DNA from: Haliscomenobacter hydrossis DSM 1100
GTDB taxonomy: Bacteria; Bacteroidota; Bacteroidia; Chitinophagales; Saprospiraceae
Direction: 5' to 3'
Assembly (NCBI RefSeq): GCF_000212735.1
Contig: NC_015510.1
Span: forward strand, 6,573,001-6,637,000
DNA length: 64,000 nt
Part shown: positions 24,661-32,383 of the stretch, one piece after another
Layout: each line of letters opens with the position of its first letter
How positions within the stretch are numbered: position 1 is the first letter of the stretch
The notes under the pieces: generated by a model
The model's database searches: none
Seen by the model: the letters and a program-made list of their open reading frames with translations, nothing else
Told to the model about the DNA's origin: nothing
Program-made: the position numbers and the translations under genes

Positions 24661-27009
24661 TTAAAATTCAACGCGATAGCTCAAAATGGGAATGATACCC
24701 AATTGTTTTTTCTCCAGAACTTTTTCTTGGAGGTGGTCATAATAGAAAAAGCCAGCGTTTTGCTGATTGCTGGCGTTCTGAATGTCCAGCGCAAAGGTGT
24801 TGTTCCGGCCAGCCCGGTTCCATTTGAAATACAAACGGGTATCCAAACGGAAATAAGTAGCACTTTTTAAGGTAAAAGCAGGGTCAATGCGCTCATTGTT
24901 GGTGATGATCGTAAAAGAAGGCACGGTAATTTCCTCAAGTTTAGAGAGGGTGACGTCAACCGGCGTTTGCCGCAAATTACCCATCACTACTGCCCGACCA
25001 TTGATTCCCCAGAGCTTTACTTTACCGGCTTTGCGTTCTTTGCGCCATTCTTTACCGGCAGTTGCATTGAATACAAAGCGCCCGTCAAAGTGGCTGCTTC
25101 GCCAATCGTTGTTGCCAAAGGTTTGGGCATAGGCACTGCTGTTGTTGCGGTACTCCGAACGATAGATGGAACTGTTGGCCAGTAAATAAAATCCTTTCTC
25201 CAGATAGCGACGCAAGTTGAGTTCTACCCCGTAATTGCGGGCTTCACCATCGGCGTTTAATACTTCGGGGATGCTGAAATCACTGAGCAAAACAGGCACC
25301 CGTTCATTGCTGAAATTACTGGACAACATTTGGAAGGAGTAGGGGAGTATCGCTACTTTAGTTTGCTTTTGGTAGTAAGCTTGTATTTCTACACTGGTGG
25401 ATGGGCCGGTTTGAACCTGGAACCCGATGCTGCTCTGTTGGCTTTTGACCAAAGACAAAGGCTGCGCCACATCGCTTACCGGCAAGATGGGTCTTTGACT
25501 GAATTCACCAAAAGAAAGCGTCAGTTTTTTGGTGGCATCCAGGCGATAAGCAAGATTGAGACGGGGTTCCAAACTGCTGATGGATCCTTTTTCAAGTGCT
25601 ACGGTATTCAGCAGTTTTAAATAGTGGATGCCCAATTCCCACTCTAAATTACCAAAATCCAGTTTGGTAGAAGTGTAGGGCTGAATGATCTCTCCTCCAT
25701 TGTACAACACCCCTACTTTTATGGTTTGCCGAGGATTCGGTTTGAGGTGCCAATAGGAATGTACACTGCGGCGGAATTGCCGAATTTGATCCCGCAAGTT
25801 GGGCCCAGCCTCTACGAAGTAAACGGAAAGGCGCTCACTGTTGTAACTTGAGTATGCAAAAGATGTATGCCACATGCCCTTTTGCCCAACTGGGAGTTTG
25901 AATGTGCCGCCAATCACCTGGGTAGAAGATTCAAAATCAATATCTTGGCGGTCTTTATCGAATTCCCAGGTCGTTGAGTCCCGATCACCTGTAAAAACAT
26001 TTGAGCTGTTGCCGGCCATGCCAAAGAGGGTAAACTTGCCACCCTTGGCAAATGGGAAAACCAGATTCACCGCTACATCCTTAAAACTGATGGCTTCTCC
26101 GCCAAAATCCAATCCCAGATCACTCAAAAGCCCTAAAGTGGAATAACGTCCATTGATCAAATAGGAGGCGCCTCCGGCCTTGCCAATCGGGCCTTCAGCG
26201 GCGGCATCAAATCCGAGTACACTGGCTTGCAGGGTATATTCTTGTTGTTCGTTGTTGCCCGTACGCAGGCGCATGTCAAAAACGCCACCTAGTGCATTGC
26301 CATATCCCGCCGCATAATCGCCAGTCAAAAAAGCAGAATTGCCCAACATTTGGGTACTGAGCATGTTTACACCGCCACCCGTAAAGGTCGGCAAGTCGCT
26401 TTGTGAACCAGCATTGGGCGTATGATTTGGATTGAGAATATCCACTCCTTCCAACCTCCACAGGTTGGCGTTGGGGGTATTGCCCCGCACCGAAAGGAAA
26501 TTGGCTTGGTCGTTGGTATTCACAACTCCAGGAAAAGCGCTAGCCGTGCGGGCGGGATCAAAAAAGACCCCCGGAAACCGCAGGGTGGTTTCATTGCTGA
26601 TGCTGCGCACCGAAAGGTTGAGACTGCTGAGCTCCAGCGGAGCGGCTGTGATGCTGAGTTCACTCAGGGTGGTATAAGCAATATTCAGAGGTAGGTTCAA
26701 TACGGTTTCCCGACCCGATTCAAGTAGCAATTCCGGTACCACCAGGGTATCGTACCCCACAAAGGAGACCCTCAGTCGATAACGGCCTACGGGCAAATTT
26801 TCAAACCGAAACTTTCCATTGTCATCGGTTGTGGTACCCAGGGTACTCCCTTCCAAAAGCACAGTTGCTCCCGGCAAGGCTTTTTGAGCAATAGCGTCAA
26901 TGACCTGCCCTCGTAAGGTTTGCTCGGGCTTTTGTGCAAAGGAATAGGTAATGCTGCCCAAGACAAGAATAAACACAAAAAGCGATCTGAATAGTAAATT
27001 GGTTGACAT
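24661..27009 (-). CDS. TonB-dependent receptor with carboxypeptidase-regulatory-like N-terminal domain
   Basis: A 782-residue outer-membrane receptor. The signal peptide (1-25, ending SFAQ) is followed by a CarboxypepD_reg-like domain at 30-110 (LRGQVIDAIAQKALPGATVL, then TTDDNGKFRFENLPVGRYRL), a plug domain at roughly 115-240 (FLSVRGNTPNANLWRLEGVD), and a TonB-dependent beta-barrel to the C-terminus ending in an aromatic residue (LSYRVEF). It imports an unidentified ligand using TonB/ExbBD energy. No SusD-like partner follows, so it is not a classic SusCD polysaccharide locus. A promoter-like box lies at 27057-27064. Confidence 0.93.
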   Translation of the reverse strand: MSTNLLFRSLFVFILVLGSITYSFAQKPEQTLRGQVIDAIAQKALPGATVLLEGSTLGTTTDDNGKFRFENLPVGRYRLRVSFVGYDTLVVPELLLESGRETVLNLPLNIAYTTLSELSITAAPLELSSLNLSVRSISNETTLRFPGVFFDPARTASAFPGVVNTNDQANFLSVRGNTPNANLWRLEGVDILNPNHTPNAGSQSDLPTFTGGGVNMLSTQMLGNSAFLTGDYAAGYGNALGGVFDMRLRTGNNEQQEYTLQASVLGFDAAAEGPIGKAGGASYLINGRYSTLGLLSDLGLDFGGEAISFKDVAVNLVFPFAKGGKFTLFGMAGNSSNVFTGDRDSTTWEFDKDRQDIDFESSTQVIGGTFKLPVGQKGMWHTSFAYSSYNSERLSVYFVEAGPNLRDQIRQFRRSVHSYWHLKPNPRQTIKVGVLYNGGEIIQPYTSTKLDFGNLEWELGIHYLKLLNTVALEKGSISSLEPRLNLAYRLDATKKLTLSFGEFSQRPILPVSDVAQPLSLVKSQQSSIGFQVQTGPSTSVEIQAYYQKQTKVAILPYSFQMLSSNFSNERVPVLLSDFSIPEVLNADGEARNYGVELNLRRYLEKGFYLLANSSIYRSEYRNNSSAYAQTFGNNDWRSSHFDGRFVFNATAGKEWRKERKAGKVKLWGINGRAVVMGNLRQTPVDVTLSKLEEITVPSFTIITNNERIDPAFTLKSATYFRLDTRLYFKWNRAGRNNTFALDIQNASNQQNAGFFYYDHLQEKVLEKKQLGIIPILSYRVEF

Positions 27010-27440
27010 GAAGGTATGATTAAGTCGGTAAATAGACTGCTAATGATTCTGCGCGCCAAATATACCTTTCAGCTCGCTAAAAAAGGAGAGAAAGTTCACT
27101 TTCTTAATCGCCCAATTTAGGGCAAGAGAAAGATTGTTACAATGATATTGCTTAAATATGAGAAAAAAAAGGTAAGATAACTAACCTAAATTAGGAAATA
27201 AATACTAATTTTGAACATCTCGTCATAATGAATCATCAAATTACTTTCCACAGGCTGCTTTAAGAGGCAGAAGCACTAGAATTTATTATATTTCTATTCA
27301 GCAATTTGATTTACAAGAAAATGTGAACTGCTGTTGTGTCTCGGCCTGAGATTCAGCCAGGATCAGTATGCAGTAAATTTACACAACAGGAAAAAATTTG
27401 TTTGGGTATTTCTTACAACTTATCCATAGAATAGATTCCT
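27010..27440. other. divergent intergenic region before the sigma-54 activator
   Basis: A 431-bp AT-rich spacer. It contains the minus-strand promoter for the TonB receptor. Near the activator start there are 9-bp arms CTGTTGTGT (27331-27339) and ACACAACAG (27381-27389) enclosing a smaller GGCCTGAGATTCAGCC hairpin, which may be leader RNA structure. No ORF is convincing. Confidence 0.45.
27057..27084 (-). promoter_or_regulatory. putative Bacteroidota promoter for the TonB-dependent receptor
   Basis: Read on the minus strand, TATATTTG (27064-27057) matches the -7 consensus. A T-run at 27084-27079 stands where the -33 box is expected. The ATG lies about 48 bp downstream at 27009. Confidence 0.45.
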
Positions 27441-29573
27441 ATGAATGAAACTAAAATGTTAGACATTTATTTGGGCGCTTCAGAGCTCTTGCAAAGCGCG
27501 GCGGTTTGGTTGGCCTCTGATGGCCGGATTTTGGGGGTCAACGCCTTGTTCGCTTCAGAATTGGGATACCCCCAAGAAGATTTGAAAGGAAAGTCCATCT
27601 TTCAAATCAATCCGCACCTCAATTTGATGGAATGGAAGAAAATTTGGAAAGCGTTAGAAAACTCCGGGCAAACTGACATTGAGTCGGACCACATCACCGC
27701 AAATGGGAAATTGTACCCCATCCGGATGAAAGCGGTGATGGTAGACATTGGTCTAGAAAAGGTTTGTATTGGCATCGTCAAAAACCTGATGGAGCTGACC
27801 CGCTATAAAGATATGCTGGAGTTGGTGACTGGCATGGCTAAAATTGGATCTTATGAACTGGATCTGGTAAGTGATGAACTGGTCACAACCGAAGAATTTT
27901 ACCGCGTTTTGGGGTTAGAGAAAGTTACGCACCCTATGACCAGAGACGATTTTCGCCTGCTGATCAAACAGCACCTTGTGCCCGAAGAGCTGATTAATTT
28001 GGACAACAAAACCGACCTGGCCATCAGGGACGGAATTTCTACCGAAACGACGTTCACCATTACGACCAAAAATAAAGAAGTTAAACACCTTAAGTTATAC
28101 GTTTATCCGCTTAGCAAGGAAGGGATAACCTACAAAATTTATGGCGCGGTTCAGGACATTACCCAACAAAGAGCAACGGTTCAACCCTTGGAACTGGTCA
28201 AATTCCTGATCGACAATGCCACCGAAATGATTTATTGGGTAAAAAGGGATGGAAAAGTTCGGTATTCCAATTATGCCTTTGTGGAAAGAATGGGGTACAC
28301 CATGGAGGAGATAACCGAATTACACATCCACGATTTGGTGCCTGATGTAGTGGAAATCGGTTGGGAAAACCTTTTTGATCTTTTACGAGAAAAAAAGCAT
28401 TTGGTCATTGAGCGAAACAAACGCTGCAAAGATGGGTCATTTTTCCCCGCTCAGGTCGTGGCCAATCATGTGGAGTACAACGGTGAATCTTTCATTTGCA
28501 AATATGTACGTGACCTGAGTGATATCCGCAAAACTGAAGCTGAATTGCGTCAGGCTGTTCAGGAAATTTCAGAACTAAAAAGACAGTTGGAATTGGAAAA
28601 CAGCTATTTGCAAAGTGAGATTGAAATTGAGTACAACTTCAACAACATCATCACCGCAAGTGAAAGTTACAAAACAGTACTGCAGCAGGTTCAACAGGTT
28701 GCGCATACGGATGCAACGGTATTGATCACTGGAGAAACAGGCACGGGTAAAGAACTCCTGGCTCGGGCCATCCACAGCAATAGTGCACGCAGTAAAAAAC
28801 AAATGATCAAAGTGAACTGTGCTGCACTGCCGGAAAGTTTGATCGAAAGTGAATTGTTCGGCCACGAAAAGGGCGCGTTTACCGGAGCCATACAAAAGAA
28901 ACCTGGCCGCTTTGAATTGGCTCACCAGAGTACCATTTTCCTGGACGAAATCGGCGAGATGTCACTTGACGTTCAGGCAAAATTGCTGCGGGTGCTACAG
29001 GAAGGAGAATTTGAACGGGTAGGTGGATCGGAAACATTGCAATGCGATGTACGGGTAATCGCTGCGACCAACCGCAATCTTGAACAAATGATTGCGGAAG
29101 GAAAGTTTCGGCGGGATTTGTATTACCGCATTAGCGTTTTCCCCATTCACAATATTCCACTCCGCGAACGCAAAGAAGACATTGCCTTATTGATTCGACA
29201 CTTTGTGAAAAAATTTTCCATCAAAACGGGTAAAAACATTGACAAAATCCCCCGTAGGGTATTTGATATTTTAGAGGAATATTGCTTCCCGGGTAACATC
29301 CGCGAGTTGGAAAACATCATCGAACGTTCGGTCATCCTTAGTCATCAACAGACCTTGAGTTTTGATATCATACCCTTCAAAAAAGGAGAAAAATCAATTG
29401 TTGAAGAAAATGGCTCGTTTAAATCTCTGGAAGAAATTCAACGTGAACACATCCTTAATGCCTTAAAAAAGACCCAGGGAAGGGTAAGTGGCCCCTCTGG
29501 TGCAGCGCGTTTGTTGGGATTAAACGATAAAACCTTATTCTCGAAAATGGCAAAACTGGGGATAAACGAGTAA
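27441..29573 (+). CDS. sigma-54-dependent enhancer-binding protein with three PAS domains
   Basis: A 710-residue activator. PAS-like sensor domains lie at about 12-115, 125-245 and 250-365, then a coiled coil (365-400). The AAA+ sigma-54-activation domain has Walker A GETGTGKE (431-438), the sigma-54-contacting GAFTGA loop (478-483), Walker B IFLDEIGE (499-506) and the FRRDLYYRI segment (556-564). A Fis-type HTH ends the protein (GAARLLGLNDKTLFSKMAKL, 687-706). There is no receiver domain, so it is not a classical response regulator; signals probably enter through the PAS domains. A consensus sigma-54 promoter lies just 110 bp past its stop codon, suggesting a local target. Confidence 0.95.
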   Translation: MNETKMLDIYLGASELLQSAAVWLASDGRILGVNALFASELGYPQEDLKGKSIFQINPHLNLMEWKKIWKALENSGQTDIESDHITANGKLYPIRMKAVMVDIGLEKVCIGIVKNLMELTRYKDMLELVTGMAKIGSYELDLVSDELVTTEEFYRVLGLEKVTHPMTRDDFRLLIKQHLVPEELINLDNKTDLAIRDGISTETTFTITTKNKEVKHLKLYVYPLSKEGITYKIYGAVQDITQQRATVQPLELVKFLIDNATEMIYWVKRDGKVRYSNYAFVERMGYTMEEITELHIHDLVPDVVEIGWENLFDLLREKKHLVIERNKRCKDGSFFPAQVVANHVEYNGESFICKYVRDLSDIRKTEAELRQAVQEISELKRQLELENSYLQSEIEIEYNFNNIITASESYKTVLQQVQQVAHTDATVLITGETGTGKELLARAIHSNSARSKKQMIKVNCAALPESLIESELFGHEKGAFTGAIQKKPGRFELAHQSTIFLDEIGEMSLDVQAKLLRVLQEGEFERVGGSETLQCDVRVIAATNRNLEQMIAEGKFRRDLYYRISVFPIHNIPLRERKEDIALLIRHFVKKFSIKTGKNIDKIPRRVFDILEEYCFPGNIRELENIIERSVILSHQQTLSFDIIPFKKGEKSIVEENGSFKSLEEIQREHILNALKKTQGRVSGPSGAARLLGLNDKTLFSKMAKLGINE

Positions 29574-29614
29574 ATTAAATATTTCTCTTATGTCGTAAAT
29601 TTCTTTTATTTAAG

Positions 29615-29646
29615 AAAAAAGCACAAGCAAAAACTTGTGCTTTTTT
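29615..29646 (+). terminator. rho-independent terminator of the sigma-54 activator gene
   Basis: AAAAAAGCACAAG pairs perfectly with CTTGTGCTTTTTT across a 6-nt loop, 42 bp past the stop. It isolates the activator transcript from the sigma-54 promoter downstream. Confidence 0.85.
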
Positions 29647-29681
29647 GATTTAATGAATTGATATTCAAAGTGTAAAAAAAT

Positions 29682-29697
29682 TGGCACACAGATTGCA
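29682..29697 (+). promoter_or_regulatory. consensus sigma-54 (-24/-12) promoter
   Basis: TGGCAC-ACAGA-TTGCA matches the established TGGCAC-N5-TTGCW consensus at every defined base, with GG and GC 12 bp apart. It predicts a start near 29709. It lies directly downstream of a sigma-54 activator gene and upstream of an ORF-less interval ending in a terminator. Confidence 0.82.
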
Positions 29698-29708
29698 ATA
29701 CTAAGTTG

Positions 29709-29966
29709 TAGTAAAAGGATTTGTCATTGTGAATCAGCAATAATCGCTTTACAATTAACAATCTCAACCCTCAATAGTACGGCTTTACCATAGCCCATAA
29801 TAAGTATTGGTAAATAGCCAGAACTACTGTAATACTGTATTTTTGACACTGTATCGCCTTAGCTAAGCTATAGGTGCAGGTACTGCCAAGTGAGGTAGCC
29901 TTAATGGGAACATTGTAGTTAAGAGCATATCCACCAAGTACTCAGGTGCTTGGTGGATACTTTTTG
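29709..29966 (+). ncRNA. candidate sigma-54-dependent small RNA, about 258 nt
   Basis: The interval runs from the predicted sigma-54 start to a strong intrinsic terminator and contains no open frame longer than a few codons in any frame. It can form a stem-loop at 29781-29819 (GGCTTTACCATA with TATTGGTAAATAGCC), a small TAGCTAAGCTA hairpin further on, and the terminator hairpin. It does not resemble an RNA family I know. Both ends are inferred from sequence signals only; a short leader of an undetected peptide cannot be excluded. Confidence 0.6.
29928..29966 (+). terminator. rho-independent terminator of the candidate small RNA
   Basis: TATCCACCAAG (29928-29938) and CTTGGTGGATA (29949-29959) form a perfect 11-bp stem with a 10-nt loop, followed by CTTTTTG. 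It is too far from the activator gene, which has its own terminator, to serve that gene. Confidence 0.85.
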
Positions 29967-30066
29967 TGGAAGCTATTCAACAACGCAAAATACGATCTGC
30001 CTGGTAATCAGGATTGTCGAGATAAAGAAGCATTTTAGTTTATTTATAAGGTTCACATTTTCTTGT

Positions 30067-30105
30067 GAGGTTGTCTGCTAGGTCTTTGACAGCCTCTTTT
30101 TTTTT
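30067..30105 (+). terminator. second intrinsic terminator upstream of the GntR operon
   Basis: GAGGTTGTC (30067-30075) pairs with GACAGCCTC (30088-30096), one G-U pair, followed by nine T. No gene lies between this and the terminator at 29966, so it either backs up that one or ends a second short transcript. Confidence 0.65.
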
Positions 30106-30126
30106 GCCCAAAATTTTCGTGGATTC

Positions 30127-30144
30127 AACTTGTACGTACAAGTT
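30127..30144 (+). promoter_or_regulatory. 18-bp perfect palindrome, putative GntR operator
   Basis: AACTTGTACGTACAAGTT is a perfect palindrome of the kind bound by HutC/UTRA-type GntR regulators. It overlaps the expected -33 position of the promoter for the GntR gene itself, consistent with autorepression of the catabolic operon. Confidence 0.7.
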
Positions 30145-30159
30145 TATTTCGTAGCTTTG
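30130..30159 (+). promoter_or_regulatory. Bacteroidota promoter of the GntR catabolic operon
   Basis: The -7 box TAGCTTTG (30152-30159) fits TANNTTTG. The TTG inside the palindrome at 30130-30132 lies about 19 bp upstream as a -33 element. The ATG at 30181 follows after 21 bp. Confidence 0.6.
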
Positions 30160-30180
30160 TCTCGACAACCGTTTCTATCC

Positions 30181-30903
30181 ATGGAAAATACCTTGCAATA
30201 CAAAAATCTCTACAACCGGCTCAAAAAGGAAATCCTTGCTGACGTGTACCCCTTAGGTAGCGTTTTGCCGTCGGAAAACGAACTCTGTGCCGCATCAAGC
30301 CTGGCAAGATCAACGGTAAGGCAAGCTTTAAGCCAATTAGAAACCGAGGGATACATTGTCAAACAGAAAGGTAAAGGCAGCATTGTCAAGTCCAAGAGCA
30401 GGGCTTTAAACCTCTTGTCTTTTCATGGATTTTCAGCAACGGTGGAGCAGGACGAAATTTTCACCTTGTCCGTACAGGAGCCCCTGATCCAGCCCTGGCC
30501 AGCTGATTTCTTTTTTGACCTCAATGAAATTGAAAGCGGAGCAGGGTGTATCCATTTTTCGCGAGTGCGTTCCATTGACCAGCAGCCGGTGATGTTTGAA
30601 AGTACTTATGTGCCGAATCTCAACCTGCCCAAATTTACCCGACAATTCCAATTGCATACCTCGTTTTTTGAGTTTCTCGGCAAAGAATACCATCTGGAAA
30701 TAATGGGCATGGATCAACAAATTTGGGCAGTAGCGGCGGAGGCGGCAATTGCCACACACCTTCAGCTACCCATCGGCACACCCGTGTTGAAAATCAGTAG
30801 AAAATACCATACCAATCGCCCACACCTTCATCTCTATAGCCTGCTTTTTTGCAATACTGAAAAGTATGCGATGAGCAATTCAAGTGGTTTGGTTAACGCT
30901 TAA
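30181..30903 (+). CDS. GntR-family transcriptional regulator (UTRA/HutC type)
   Basis: A 240-residue regulator. The N-terminal winged helix has the family pattern P.GS.LPSENEL...RSTVRQALSQLE..G (residues about 25-60) and a KQKGKGSIV wing. A UTRA ligand-binding domain fills about 90-235. I start at the ATG at 30181 (MENTLQYKN) because a longer reading from 30130 would cover the operator and promoter. It heads an operon of dehydrogenases and an aldolase with only 13 bp to the next gene. It is probably a repressor relieved by a sugar or sugar-phosphate; the ligand is unknown. Confidence 0.92.
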   Translation: MENTLQYKNLYNRLKKEILADVYPLGSVLPSENELCAASSLARSTVRQALSQLETEGYIVKQKGKGSIVKSKSRALNLLSFHGFSATVEQDEIFTLSVQEPLIQPWPADFFFDLNEIESGAGCIHFSRVRSIDQQPVMFESTYVPNLNLPKFTRQFQLHTSFFEFLGKEYHLEIMGMDQQIWAVAAEAAIATHLQLPIGTPVLKISRKYHTNRPHLHLYSLLFCNTEKYAMSNSSGLVNA

Positions 30904-30916
30904 ATGCCGGAAAATT

Positions 30917-32383
30917 ATGACGAGCGAAGCTATAAAAATCAGTGGACATTACACCGCTGGTCAACAATGGACACCAGCCCAGGAAAACACGATCGCAGTG
31001 TATTCTCCCTTGGATGGTGCCTTGATCGGGGCCGTACCCATCGCTACTCCAGACACTATTGATCAAGTGGTGCACAATGCGTCCAGGGCATTCGTCGCCT
31101 GGTCAGCTACTCCGCTGAAAGAAAGGGTACAAGTACTTTTTCGTTTTAAAACCTTGCTGGAAAAACATGGTTCTGAGCTGGCCAATTTAATCCAATTGGA
31201 AAATGGCAAGACCTGGGCAGAAGCCAAAGCGGAAATCGACAAAGGGATCGAAGTTTTGGAATTTGCGACGTCCTTGCCACAAATTTGGGATCAGGGCGTT
31301 CTGGAAGTCAGCACGGGGGTGAGTTGCCAGTACGAACGTTTCCCCTTGGGAGTCGTACTCTCCATCGCACCATTTAACTTCCCGGCCATGGTACCCATGT
31401 GGACCATTCCCATCGCCATTGGTTGCGGCAATACCTTTATCCTCAAACCTTCCGAGTTGGTTCCGCTGACCGCTGTCCGCCTGGCCGAATTGTTTACAGA
31501 AGCAGGTCTGCCGAGAGGAGTATTCAACGTCGTGCACGGAGCTCGCGAAACCACAGAATACCTGATCGATCATCCGGGCATTCAGGCGCTGAGCTTTGTC
31601 GGTTCCACCAAAGTGGCCCGTTTGGTGTACCAGCGGGCTGCAACTTTGGGCAAAAAAGCACTGGCCCTGGGTGGTGCCAAAAACCACCTGGTTGTTGTTC
31701 CCGATGCCGACCCTGAAATTACCGCCAAAAACGTGGTGGCCTCGGCCATGGGTTGTGCTGGGCAACGCTGTATGGCGGCCAGTGTACTGATTTTGGTAGG
31801 TGATACGGGAAATATCCTGGATAAAATTGTGGCCGAAGCCCAAAAAATTAGGGTAGGAGAGGACTTGGGCGCTGTGATCAGCTCAGCCGCCAAAGCCAGA
31901 ATTGAAGGCTATATCGATCGCGCTGAGGCAGCGGCTTACAACATCTTGGTAGATGGTCGTGGAGCTTCCGTAGCCGGAAAAGAAAAGGGTACTTATGTTG
32001 GTCCCACCTTGATTGAAGGCGTTCCTGCTGGAGCCGAATGTGCCTGTGATGAAATTTTTGGCCCCGTACTGTCTGTCCTTCGTACCAATACCCTGGATGA
32101 GGCACTGGCCATTGAAAACAGCAATCCTTATGGCAACGCAGCCTCTATTTACACGACTTCAGGAGCTGTAGCGCGCTACTTCGCCGAACGCGCCAGTGCA
32201 GGCATGGTGGGGATCAATATCGGCGTGCCCGTTCCCCGCGAACCCTTTTCTTTCGGGGGCTGGAACGAATCCAAATTCGGCCACGGCGACATCACCGGTA
32301 TGGACGGCGTCCGCTTTTGGACCAAACTCAAAAAAGTAACCACCAAATGGACGGCCTCCGCTGCTCAGAACTGGATGAGCTAG
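30917..32383 (+). CDS. mmsA: CoA-acylating methylmalonate-semialdehyde dehydrogenase (MmsA/IolA family)
   Basis: A 488-residue ALDH-superfamily enzyme. The family converts malonate or methylmalonate semialdehyde plus CoA and NAD+ to acetyl- or propionyl-CoA, CO2 and NADH. Visible hallmarks: APFNFPAMVPMW (151-162), and GGAKNHLVVVPDAD (252-265) in place of the ELGG that holds the general-base Glu of hydrolytic ALDHs. The catalytic Cys285 is in GQRCMAAS. Absence of that Glu agrees with CoA-dependent thioester release. I chose the ATG at 30917, 13 bp after the GntR stop. No other inositol or valine catabolic gene is in view, so its substrate in this operon is uncertain. Confidence 0.92.
   Translation: MTSEAIKISGHYTAGQQWTPAQENTIAVYSPLDGALIGAVPIATPDTIDQVVHNASRAFVAWSATPLKERVQVLFRFKTLLEKHGSELANLIQLENGKTWAEAKAEIDKGIEVLEFATSLPQIWDQGVLEVSTGVSCQYERFPLGVVLSIAPFNFPAMVPMWTIPIAIGCGNTFILKPSELVPLTAVRLAELFTEAGLPRGVFNVVHGARETTEYLIDHPGIQALSFVGSTKVARLVYQRAATLGKKALALGGAKNHLVVVPDADPEITAKNVVASAMGCAGQRCMAASVLILVGDTGNILDKIVAEAQKIRVGEDLGAVISSAAKARIEGYIDRAEAAAYNILVDGRGASVAGKEKGTYVGPTLIEGVPAGAECACDEIFGPVLSVLRTNTLDEALAIENSNPYGNAASIYTTSGAVARYFAERASAGMVGINIGVPVPREPFSFGGWNESKFGHGDITGMDGVRFWTKLKKVTTKWTASAAQNWMS

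Follow-up and report, generated by a model that had tools for sequence, protein, structure and literature searches.

A candidate sigma-54-dependent noncoding RNA beside its presumed activator gene in Haliscomenobacter hydrossis

Small RNAs that depend on sigma-54 and are encoded beside the gene of their own activator are already known from Proteobacteria. The Pseudomonas RNA CrcZ, in the passages devoted to it in PMC8395346 and PMC6296734, is encoded between cbrB and pcnB, is RpoN-dependent and has upstream sites bound by CbrB. NrsZ, also from Pseudomonas, is described in part of PMC8395346 as an RNA of about 226 nt from the ntrC-PA5126 intergenic region that requires NtrB/C and RpoN. In Enterobacteriaceae glmY lies directly 5' of qseEGF, with QseF/GlrR sites upstream, and QseF also drives the ECF gene rpoE (passages of PMC6075780). 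The original prediction likened the present locus to Vibrio Qrr; the likeness stands, with the correction that Qrr is neither the sole nor the nearest parallel, as CrcZ, NrsZ and GlmY also adjoin activator genes in the same passages (PMC8395346, PMC6075780). Sigma-54 promoters and 85 new RNAs have been mapped in Flavobacterium psychrophilum, and the passages of that work covered here name no sigma-54-controlled RNA. Within the portion of the open-licence literature covered, we found no described case of a sigma-54-controlled small RNA in Bacteroidota or Saprospiraceae.

Haliscomenobacter hydrossis DSM 1100 is a sheathed sludge bacterium (Saprospiraceae, Bacteroidota) with a genome of 8,771,651 bp in four contigs. 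The window, by which we mean the whole 64,000-nucleotide stretch that was analysed, covers positions 6,573,001-6,637,000 of the contig of 8,371,686 bp (both sizes also appear in passages of PMC3156403). The reading that we favor, with a probability of roughly 0.6, is that it encodes a sigma-54-dependent, noncoding and independently terminated RNA under the adjacent PAS-type activator. The features are as follows.

27066..30080 (edges ±20 bp or so): DNA block of ~3.0 kb that contains the activator, the two operators and the ORF-less transcript; from congener alignments and GC
27146..27167: second 22-bp operator copy, TATTGCTTAAATATGAGAAAAA, 273 bp 5' of the activator start; weight-matrix score 16.4-16.5 bits
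27441..29573, plus strand: sigma-54 activator, 710 aa; PAS, Sigma54_activat and Fis-type HTH
29580..29601: weak distal operator copy, 18 bp upstream of the main operator; 5.5 bits only
29598..29619: predicted operator (upstream activating sequence), AATTTCTTTTATTTAAGAAAAA, centre at about -99 from the predicted start; 18.4-18.6 bits
29615..29646, plus strand: activator-gene terminator, a hairpin with perfect 13-bp arms and a gap of 6
29682..29697, plus strand: sigma-54 promoter TGGCAC-N5-TTGCA, TGGCACACAGATTGCA; begins 84 bp after the operator start
29708..29966, plus strand: predicted noncoding transcript of ~258 nt; start placed by promoter geometry
29781..29819, plus strand: internal stem-loop; from folding, modest support
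29928..29966, plus strand: intrinsic terminator; 14 pairs, loop 4, then CTTTTTG
30130..30159, plus strand: gntR promoter, presumed sigma-A-type, TTG-N19-TAGCTTTG, overlapping the palindrome ACTTGTACGTACAAGT; right bound of the unit

The activator carries PAS domains and matches PF00158 with 251 bits and PF02954 with 27.7 bits, and GAFTGA is intact in its translation. It has the two domains expected of a bacterial enhancer-binding protein, an HTH and a GAFTGA-bearing AAA+ sigma-54 interaction domain, and its Pfam matches include no receiver domain. With these domains intact and a hairpin behind the gene, the earlier description of a sigma-54 activator gene with its own terminator is borne out. 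The genome encodes two rpoN genes (C1:3310140-3311648 and C1:2037593-2039011) and nine near full-length sigma-54 interaction domains, six more matches being weak. A sigma-54 activator domain (L071, C1:2036613-2037116) is encoded near one of the two rpoN genes. Of 398 family genomes, 37 encode homologues of the N-terminal half of the activator, the H. hydrossis genome among them (E ≤1e-40; best identity 35%); none of the four congeners does. The homologues used as relatives are 28-54% identical to it, over aligned stretches only. A peptide scan found no close orthologues, and a second scan returned six distant records (Saprospiraceae, Lewinella and Bacteroidota MAGs) with 28-35% identity.

We searched for an operator in the surroundings of 43 homologous activator loci from 39 genomes of the same family, several of which are close kin, so that the operator and promoter counts below are not independent. 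Based on a weight matrix iterated on the activator flanks, with the window left out of training, the operator is a 22-bp palindrome, about WTTTKMTKAWATWTMAKMAAAW. With the window counted in, 25 of the 44 loci carry a total of 47 sites of at least 11 bits, whereas 40 shuffle sets averaged 0.45; the matrix had been trained on those same flanks, window excepted. An earlier guess, TGATTN6AATCA, is found in the flanks of the 44 loci six times exactly (0.09 in shuffles) and 12 times with one mismatch (2.3 in shuffles); it has no match in the window and was abandoned for the iterated matrix, which found the window sites. Among the relatives, 24 of the 43 loci carry the operator in the activator flanks, with 16 tandem pairs spaced by 19 bp (13 pairs), 18 bp (two) or 20 bp (one). 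Beside the activators, 17,669 bp contain 45 sites, whereas the rest of the intergenic DNA at these loci, 62,575 bp, contains 11, the majority of which belong to operator-promoter pairs.

Promoters of the relatives were scored with the -12 variants TTGAA and TTGGA accepted. Candidates with scores of at least 3.5 are present in 20 of the 28 operator-bearing flanks and absent from eight (L082 twice, L120, L122, L137, L140, L146 and L148), with weaker candidates at 72-73 bp in L120, L137, L140 and L146. In 15 of the 20 flanks, from 13 loci, the distance from the start of the proximal operator to the promoter that follows is exactly 73 bp.

Loci in the 73-bp module: L084, L086, L121, L124, L126, L128, L132, L133, L134, L138, L141, L144, L147

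The other five distances are 70 (L121, downstream), 79 (L087), 94 (L091), 114 (L092) and 157 bp (L142). Seven of the 19 loci without a flank operator have one a few genes off (L085, L088, L123, L127, L139, L143 and L145), and operators away from the activator keep the spacing, with 73 bp in L085, L088, L123 and L127 and 72 bp in L145. The -12 element reads TTGAA in L121, L124, L126, L128, L132, L133, L138 and L147 and TTGGA in L134 and L141, beside a perfect -24 element TGGCAC; these forms are possibly specific to a clade.

The original prediction had presumed that the activator acts on the promoter next to it, and this link is strengthened by the finding that a matrix trained on relatives alone identifies the window operator at 29598-29619. 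Its 84-bp distance from the promoter is about one helical turn beyond 73 bp, as the 114 bp of L092 is about four turns more, which gives a predicted upstream activator site in a workable position. The score of this site was matched by one of 2000 shuffles of its 120-bp stretch, and that of the site at 27146-27167 was reached by one of 1000 shuffles of that flank; within 200 bp of the latter no sigma-54-like promoter was found. These are the only two sites of at least 9 bits in the 64 kb, and both flank the activator. No site of at least 14 bits occurs in 122 kb of other loci of the same genome. Operator-like sites elsewhere in this genome (L171, 18.4 bits; L170, 14.2; L189, 15.9) have no sigma-54 promoter nearby, and because such comparable sites exist the matrix alone is not decisive. 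The spacing of 84 rather than 73 bp, the weakness of the distal operator copy and the modest identity of the activator to its relatives likewise count against the reading. A strict operator pattern, devised after the window sites had been seen and with one position widened to cover 27146, occurs at four places genome-wide, two of them at the activator locus, and a sigma-54 promoter is close to this locus only. The backward control gives no fewer places (4 forward and 3 reverse in both cases), and it is therefore the position of the sites, not their number, that counts as evidence. Judged by sequence, the operator-promoter evidence supports a tie between the 29682 promoter and the adjacent activator.

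In the relatives, promoters of this type precede proteins. In 17 of 18 cases the predicted start is followed, 29-188 nt further on, by the start of an ATG ORF of 40 aa or more; in the 18th (L121, minus strand) an ORF already opens just before it. Based on Pfam, ECF sigma factors are encoded at L084 and L144 and by the second gene at L086 and L092, the first gene at L092 being thioredoxin-like; the remaining downstream neighbours are similar by eye. The recurring module of 22-bp palindromes, mostly tandem at 19 bp, with 73-bp spacing and outputs that include ECF sigma factors is predicted to be a sigma-54-to-ECF cascade. We checked 11 leaders of relatives for terminators. Nine have none, the L086 leader has a weak 8-bp match inside 62 nt, and the L139 match lies behind an ECF-like frame. 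The leader of L139 had appeared ORF-less through an artefact of the ORF overlap filter; an ATG frame there resembles, by eye, the ECF gene of L145. Among the cases examined, an ORF-less terminated product is found in the window only. At L085 (5508-5849) an operator and a sigma-54-like promoter are followed by a 315-nt ORF-less leader without a terminator and then a small ORF, an arrangement that is possibly intermediate between protein and RNA output.

The predicted transcript, from about 29708 to 29966, contains one ATG, which opens a 4-codon frame, and two GTG/TTG frames of at least eight codons (19 and 14). The claim of an ORF-less stretch of about 258 nt is upheld, as is that of an 11-bp perfect terminator. 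The latter, at 29928-29959, comprises 14 pairs including G-U, 11 of them perfect, a loop of 4 and then CTTTTTG; on the opposite strand of 29928-29966 there is no U-run. By sequence, the transcript thus has the own promoter, own terminator and lack of an ORF of an independent noncoding sRNA gene, and we consider it probably a real sigma-54-dependent noncoding transcript.

Its description as structured holds in part. The stem-loop at 29781-29819 exists (region 29775-29825, chosen post hoc: -11.5 kcal/mol, z about -2.2), and structure beyond the terminator is weak. The folding of the whole transcript (z -2.8) rests on the terminator, because the RNA without it is no more stably folded than shuffled sequences (z -0.35). 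A threefold repeat of ACTGTA was rejected as a signal, as 435 of 2000 shuffles contained a 6-mer at least three times. No tRNA or tmRNA was found in 26000-31000.

The original prediction had made the conservation of both promoter and terminator among relatives a point on which it could fail, and such conservation was not observed: the block is missing in congeners, and the transcript is missing in 397 other family genomes (no nucleotide relatives at E ≤0.001, with two candidates per genome scored in a larger group that includes these genomes). Its sequence is thus present in one of 398 family genomes, its own, which provides neither conservation nor covariation of the RNA. A search of 59 other genomes gave no credible relatives (46 of the genomes had short matches at E ≤1, best 0.018), and the four congeners gave no real match (best E 0.6). 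The view that the sequence is unlike known RNA families agrees with an Rfam scan of 29560-30180 at E ≤10, in which none of 12 matches is near the gathering score or inside the transcript body; Qrr, CrcZ, NrsZ and GlmY are absent from these matches, so far as Rfam models them. Duplex searches for targets among 39 start regions of the window did no better than chance, with a best value of -51.8 when 20 shuffled RNAs averaged -53.2. With three ECF-gene start regions, one duplex (L182) was better than shuffles by about 2 sd and two were worse.

This lack of conservation and of structure beyond the terminator would also suit a relic, in which operator and promoter formerly drove a protein gene that is now lost, for example an ECF sigma factor, and the transcript is made but inert. 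The protein outputs of the relatives point the same way, as does the persistence of ECF homologues elsewhere in the H. hydrossis genome: 13 ECF-type matches were found, the best with 52, 46 and 43% identity, and ten such loci lack a close sigma-54 promoter and, apart from the distant L189 site, any operator near the start of the ECF gene. However, 29574-30180 contains no convincing coding remnant; the end of the gntR frame excepted, the best match among many queries covers 33 aa of the minus strand with E 0.003. All neighbourhood ORFs gave 94 matches against 48 for the reversed sequence (best E 0.003 versus 0.033), none convincing. In addition, promoter, operator and terminator are intact, which is unexpected after long disuse, although selection is not demonstrable from one genome. 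We therefore regard a relic as unlikely, and as the strongest competitor of a functional sigma-54-dependent RNA.

A different explanation is that the promoter match is accidental and no sigma-54 transcription occurs here. The claim of a full-consensus sigma-54 promoter past the activator gene is correct as to sequence: the -24/-12 elements are present as an exact match at 29682-29697 on the plus strand, with GG-N10-GC spacing, 108 bp beyond the end of the activator ORF (29573). No other exact match exists in the 64 kb, where matches with up to two mismatches number 20 (28 expected). The 8.77-Mb genome contains ten exact copies, eight within ORFs and two intergenic, against one of the same pattern read backwards. 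Because of these ten copies, mostly in ORFs, the match is weak evidence on its own. In the intergenic DNA flanking the 44 activator loci, window included (18,777 bases), perfect TGGCACN5TTGCA occurs three times (window, L086 and L144), compared with a mean of 0.013 in 300 shuffle sets. An accident would also have to account for the helically matched operator distance, the adjacent activator and the terminators on both sides, and we consider it improbable. A further intergenic sequence, TTGGTACGGCTTTTGCT at C1:5014012-5014028 (L162), is possibly another sigma-54 promoter, without an operator.

The right bound of the unit bears on a slightly less probable explanation. The gntR gene starts 214 bp beyond 29966 on the same strand, so the transcript could be the 5' end of a long sigma-54-driven gntR-dehydrogenase mRNA in which the terminator acts as a conditional switch. 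However, gntR has its own promoter of the form TTG-N19-TANNTTTG, which we take to be the Bacteroidota sigma-A type. Over it lies the palindrome ACTTGTACGTACAAGT (30128-30143), probably a GntR autoregulation site, the core of which, CTTGTACGTACAAG, is kept in all four congeners. The element TANNTTTG also appears in PMC9723704. Since gntR has this promoter and the palindrome is conserved in congeners that lack the block, gntR needs no sigma-54 unit, and a second hairpin with a T run at 30067-30105 would lie in the way of such an mRNA; an attenuated leader is thus very unlikely. Of that hairpin, GAGGTTGTC/GACAGCCTC, the left arm belongs to the extra block and the right arm to DNA that aligns with congener G004. 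Least probable of all is a small peptide, for which only the 19- and 14-codon GTG/TTG frames speak, against a sole ATG that opens four codons and with no relative for a conservation test.

The congeners also define the unit. In two of them, G002 and G004, gntR (30181) directly adjoins the gene at 24661-27009, which represents an empty site; a partial short contig of G001 shows the same compact junction, and G003, with unrelated DNA upstream of gntR, is uninformative. In these alignments the left and right flanks were aligned separately. The block is missing as a unit in 3/3 informative congeners, and its GC content is 40.8% (27063-30082) versus 47.4% for the window. Because its flanking genes adjoin in congeners, the ~3.0-kb block is either extra here or lost there, which supports a distinct unit.

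If the candidate is a sigma-54-dependent RNA, the PAS domains of the activator would sense a signal, and the activator would bind the palindrome at 29598-29619, perhaps also the weak copy at 29580, and reach RNA polymerase-sigma-54 at 29682 via looping. The product would be an RNA of ~258 nt ending near 29966. We infer a regulatory function for it, most likely in trans, by pairing with mRNAs or binding a protein. A broader proposal, on which we see the odds as evenly balanced, is that a Saprospiraceae family of sensor-activators runs sigma-54-to-ECF-sigma cascades through a fixed operator-promoter module, that the H. hydrossis lineage swapped the protein output for a noncoding RNA, that activator and RNA form one 3-kb unit gained or lost whole, and that this is, within the literature covered, the first such sRNA described in Bacteroidota. 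If true, an example from Bacteroidota that has an operator of its own would show more than one origin of this design. The locus offers a defined promoter, operator and terminator for testing, and the 73-bp rule together with the ECF-sigma outputs is a route to mapping sigma-54 regulons in Saprospiraceae.

Close to the candidate are the sigma-54 activator/ECF-sigma modules of its own family, which share a homologous activator, the 22-bp operator, the promoter type and a near-identical geometry, but have a protein output instead of an ORF-less terminated RNA. By analogy, the candidate may work like CrcZ, NrsZ and GlmY, which are compared here as far as the passages cited above describe them. CrcZ is similar in that its gene adjoins the activator gene and has upstream activator sites, in H. 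hydrossis predicted ones. It differs in its 407 nt, A-rich Hfq-binding motifs and genus-wide conservation, and in that CbrB is a response regulator; the Rfam scan indicated no relation between the two. NrsZ is conserved across Pseudomonas, is processed and receives a two-component input, whereas the candidate is not conserved and its activator lacks a receiver domain. GlmY differs by its response regulator, sites of the form TGTN12ACA, conserved synteny and known partner RapZ, but QseF, with an RNA and an ECF gene as outputs of one activator, resembles the RNA and ECF outputs across the family to which the H. hydrossis activator belongs.
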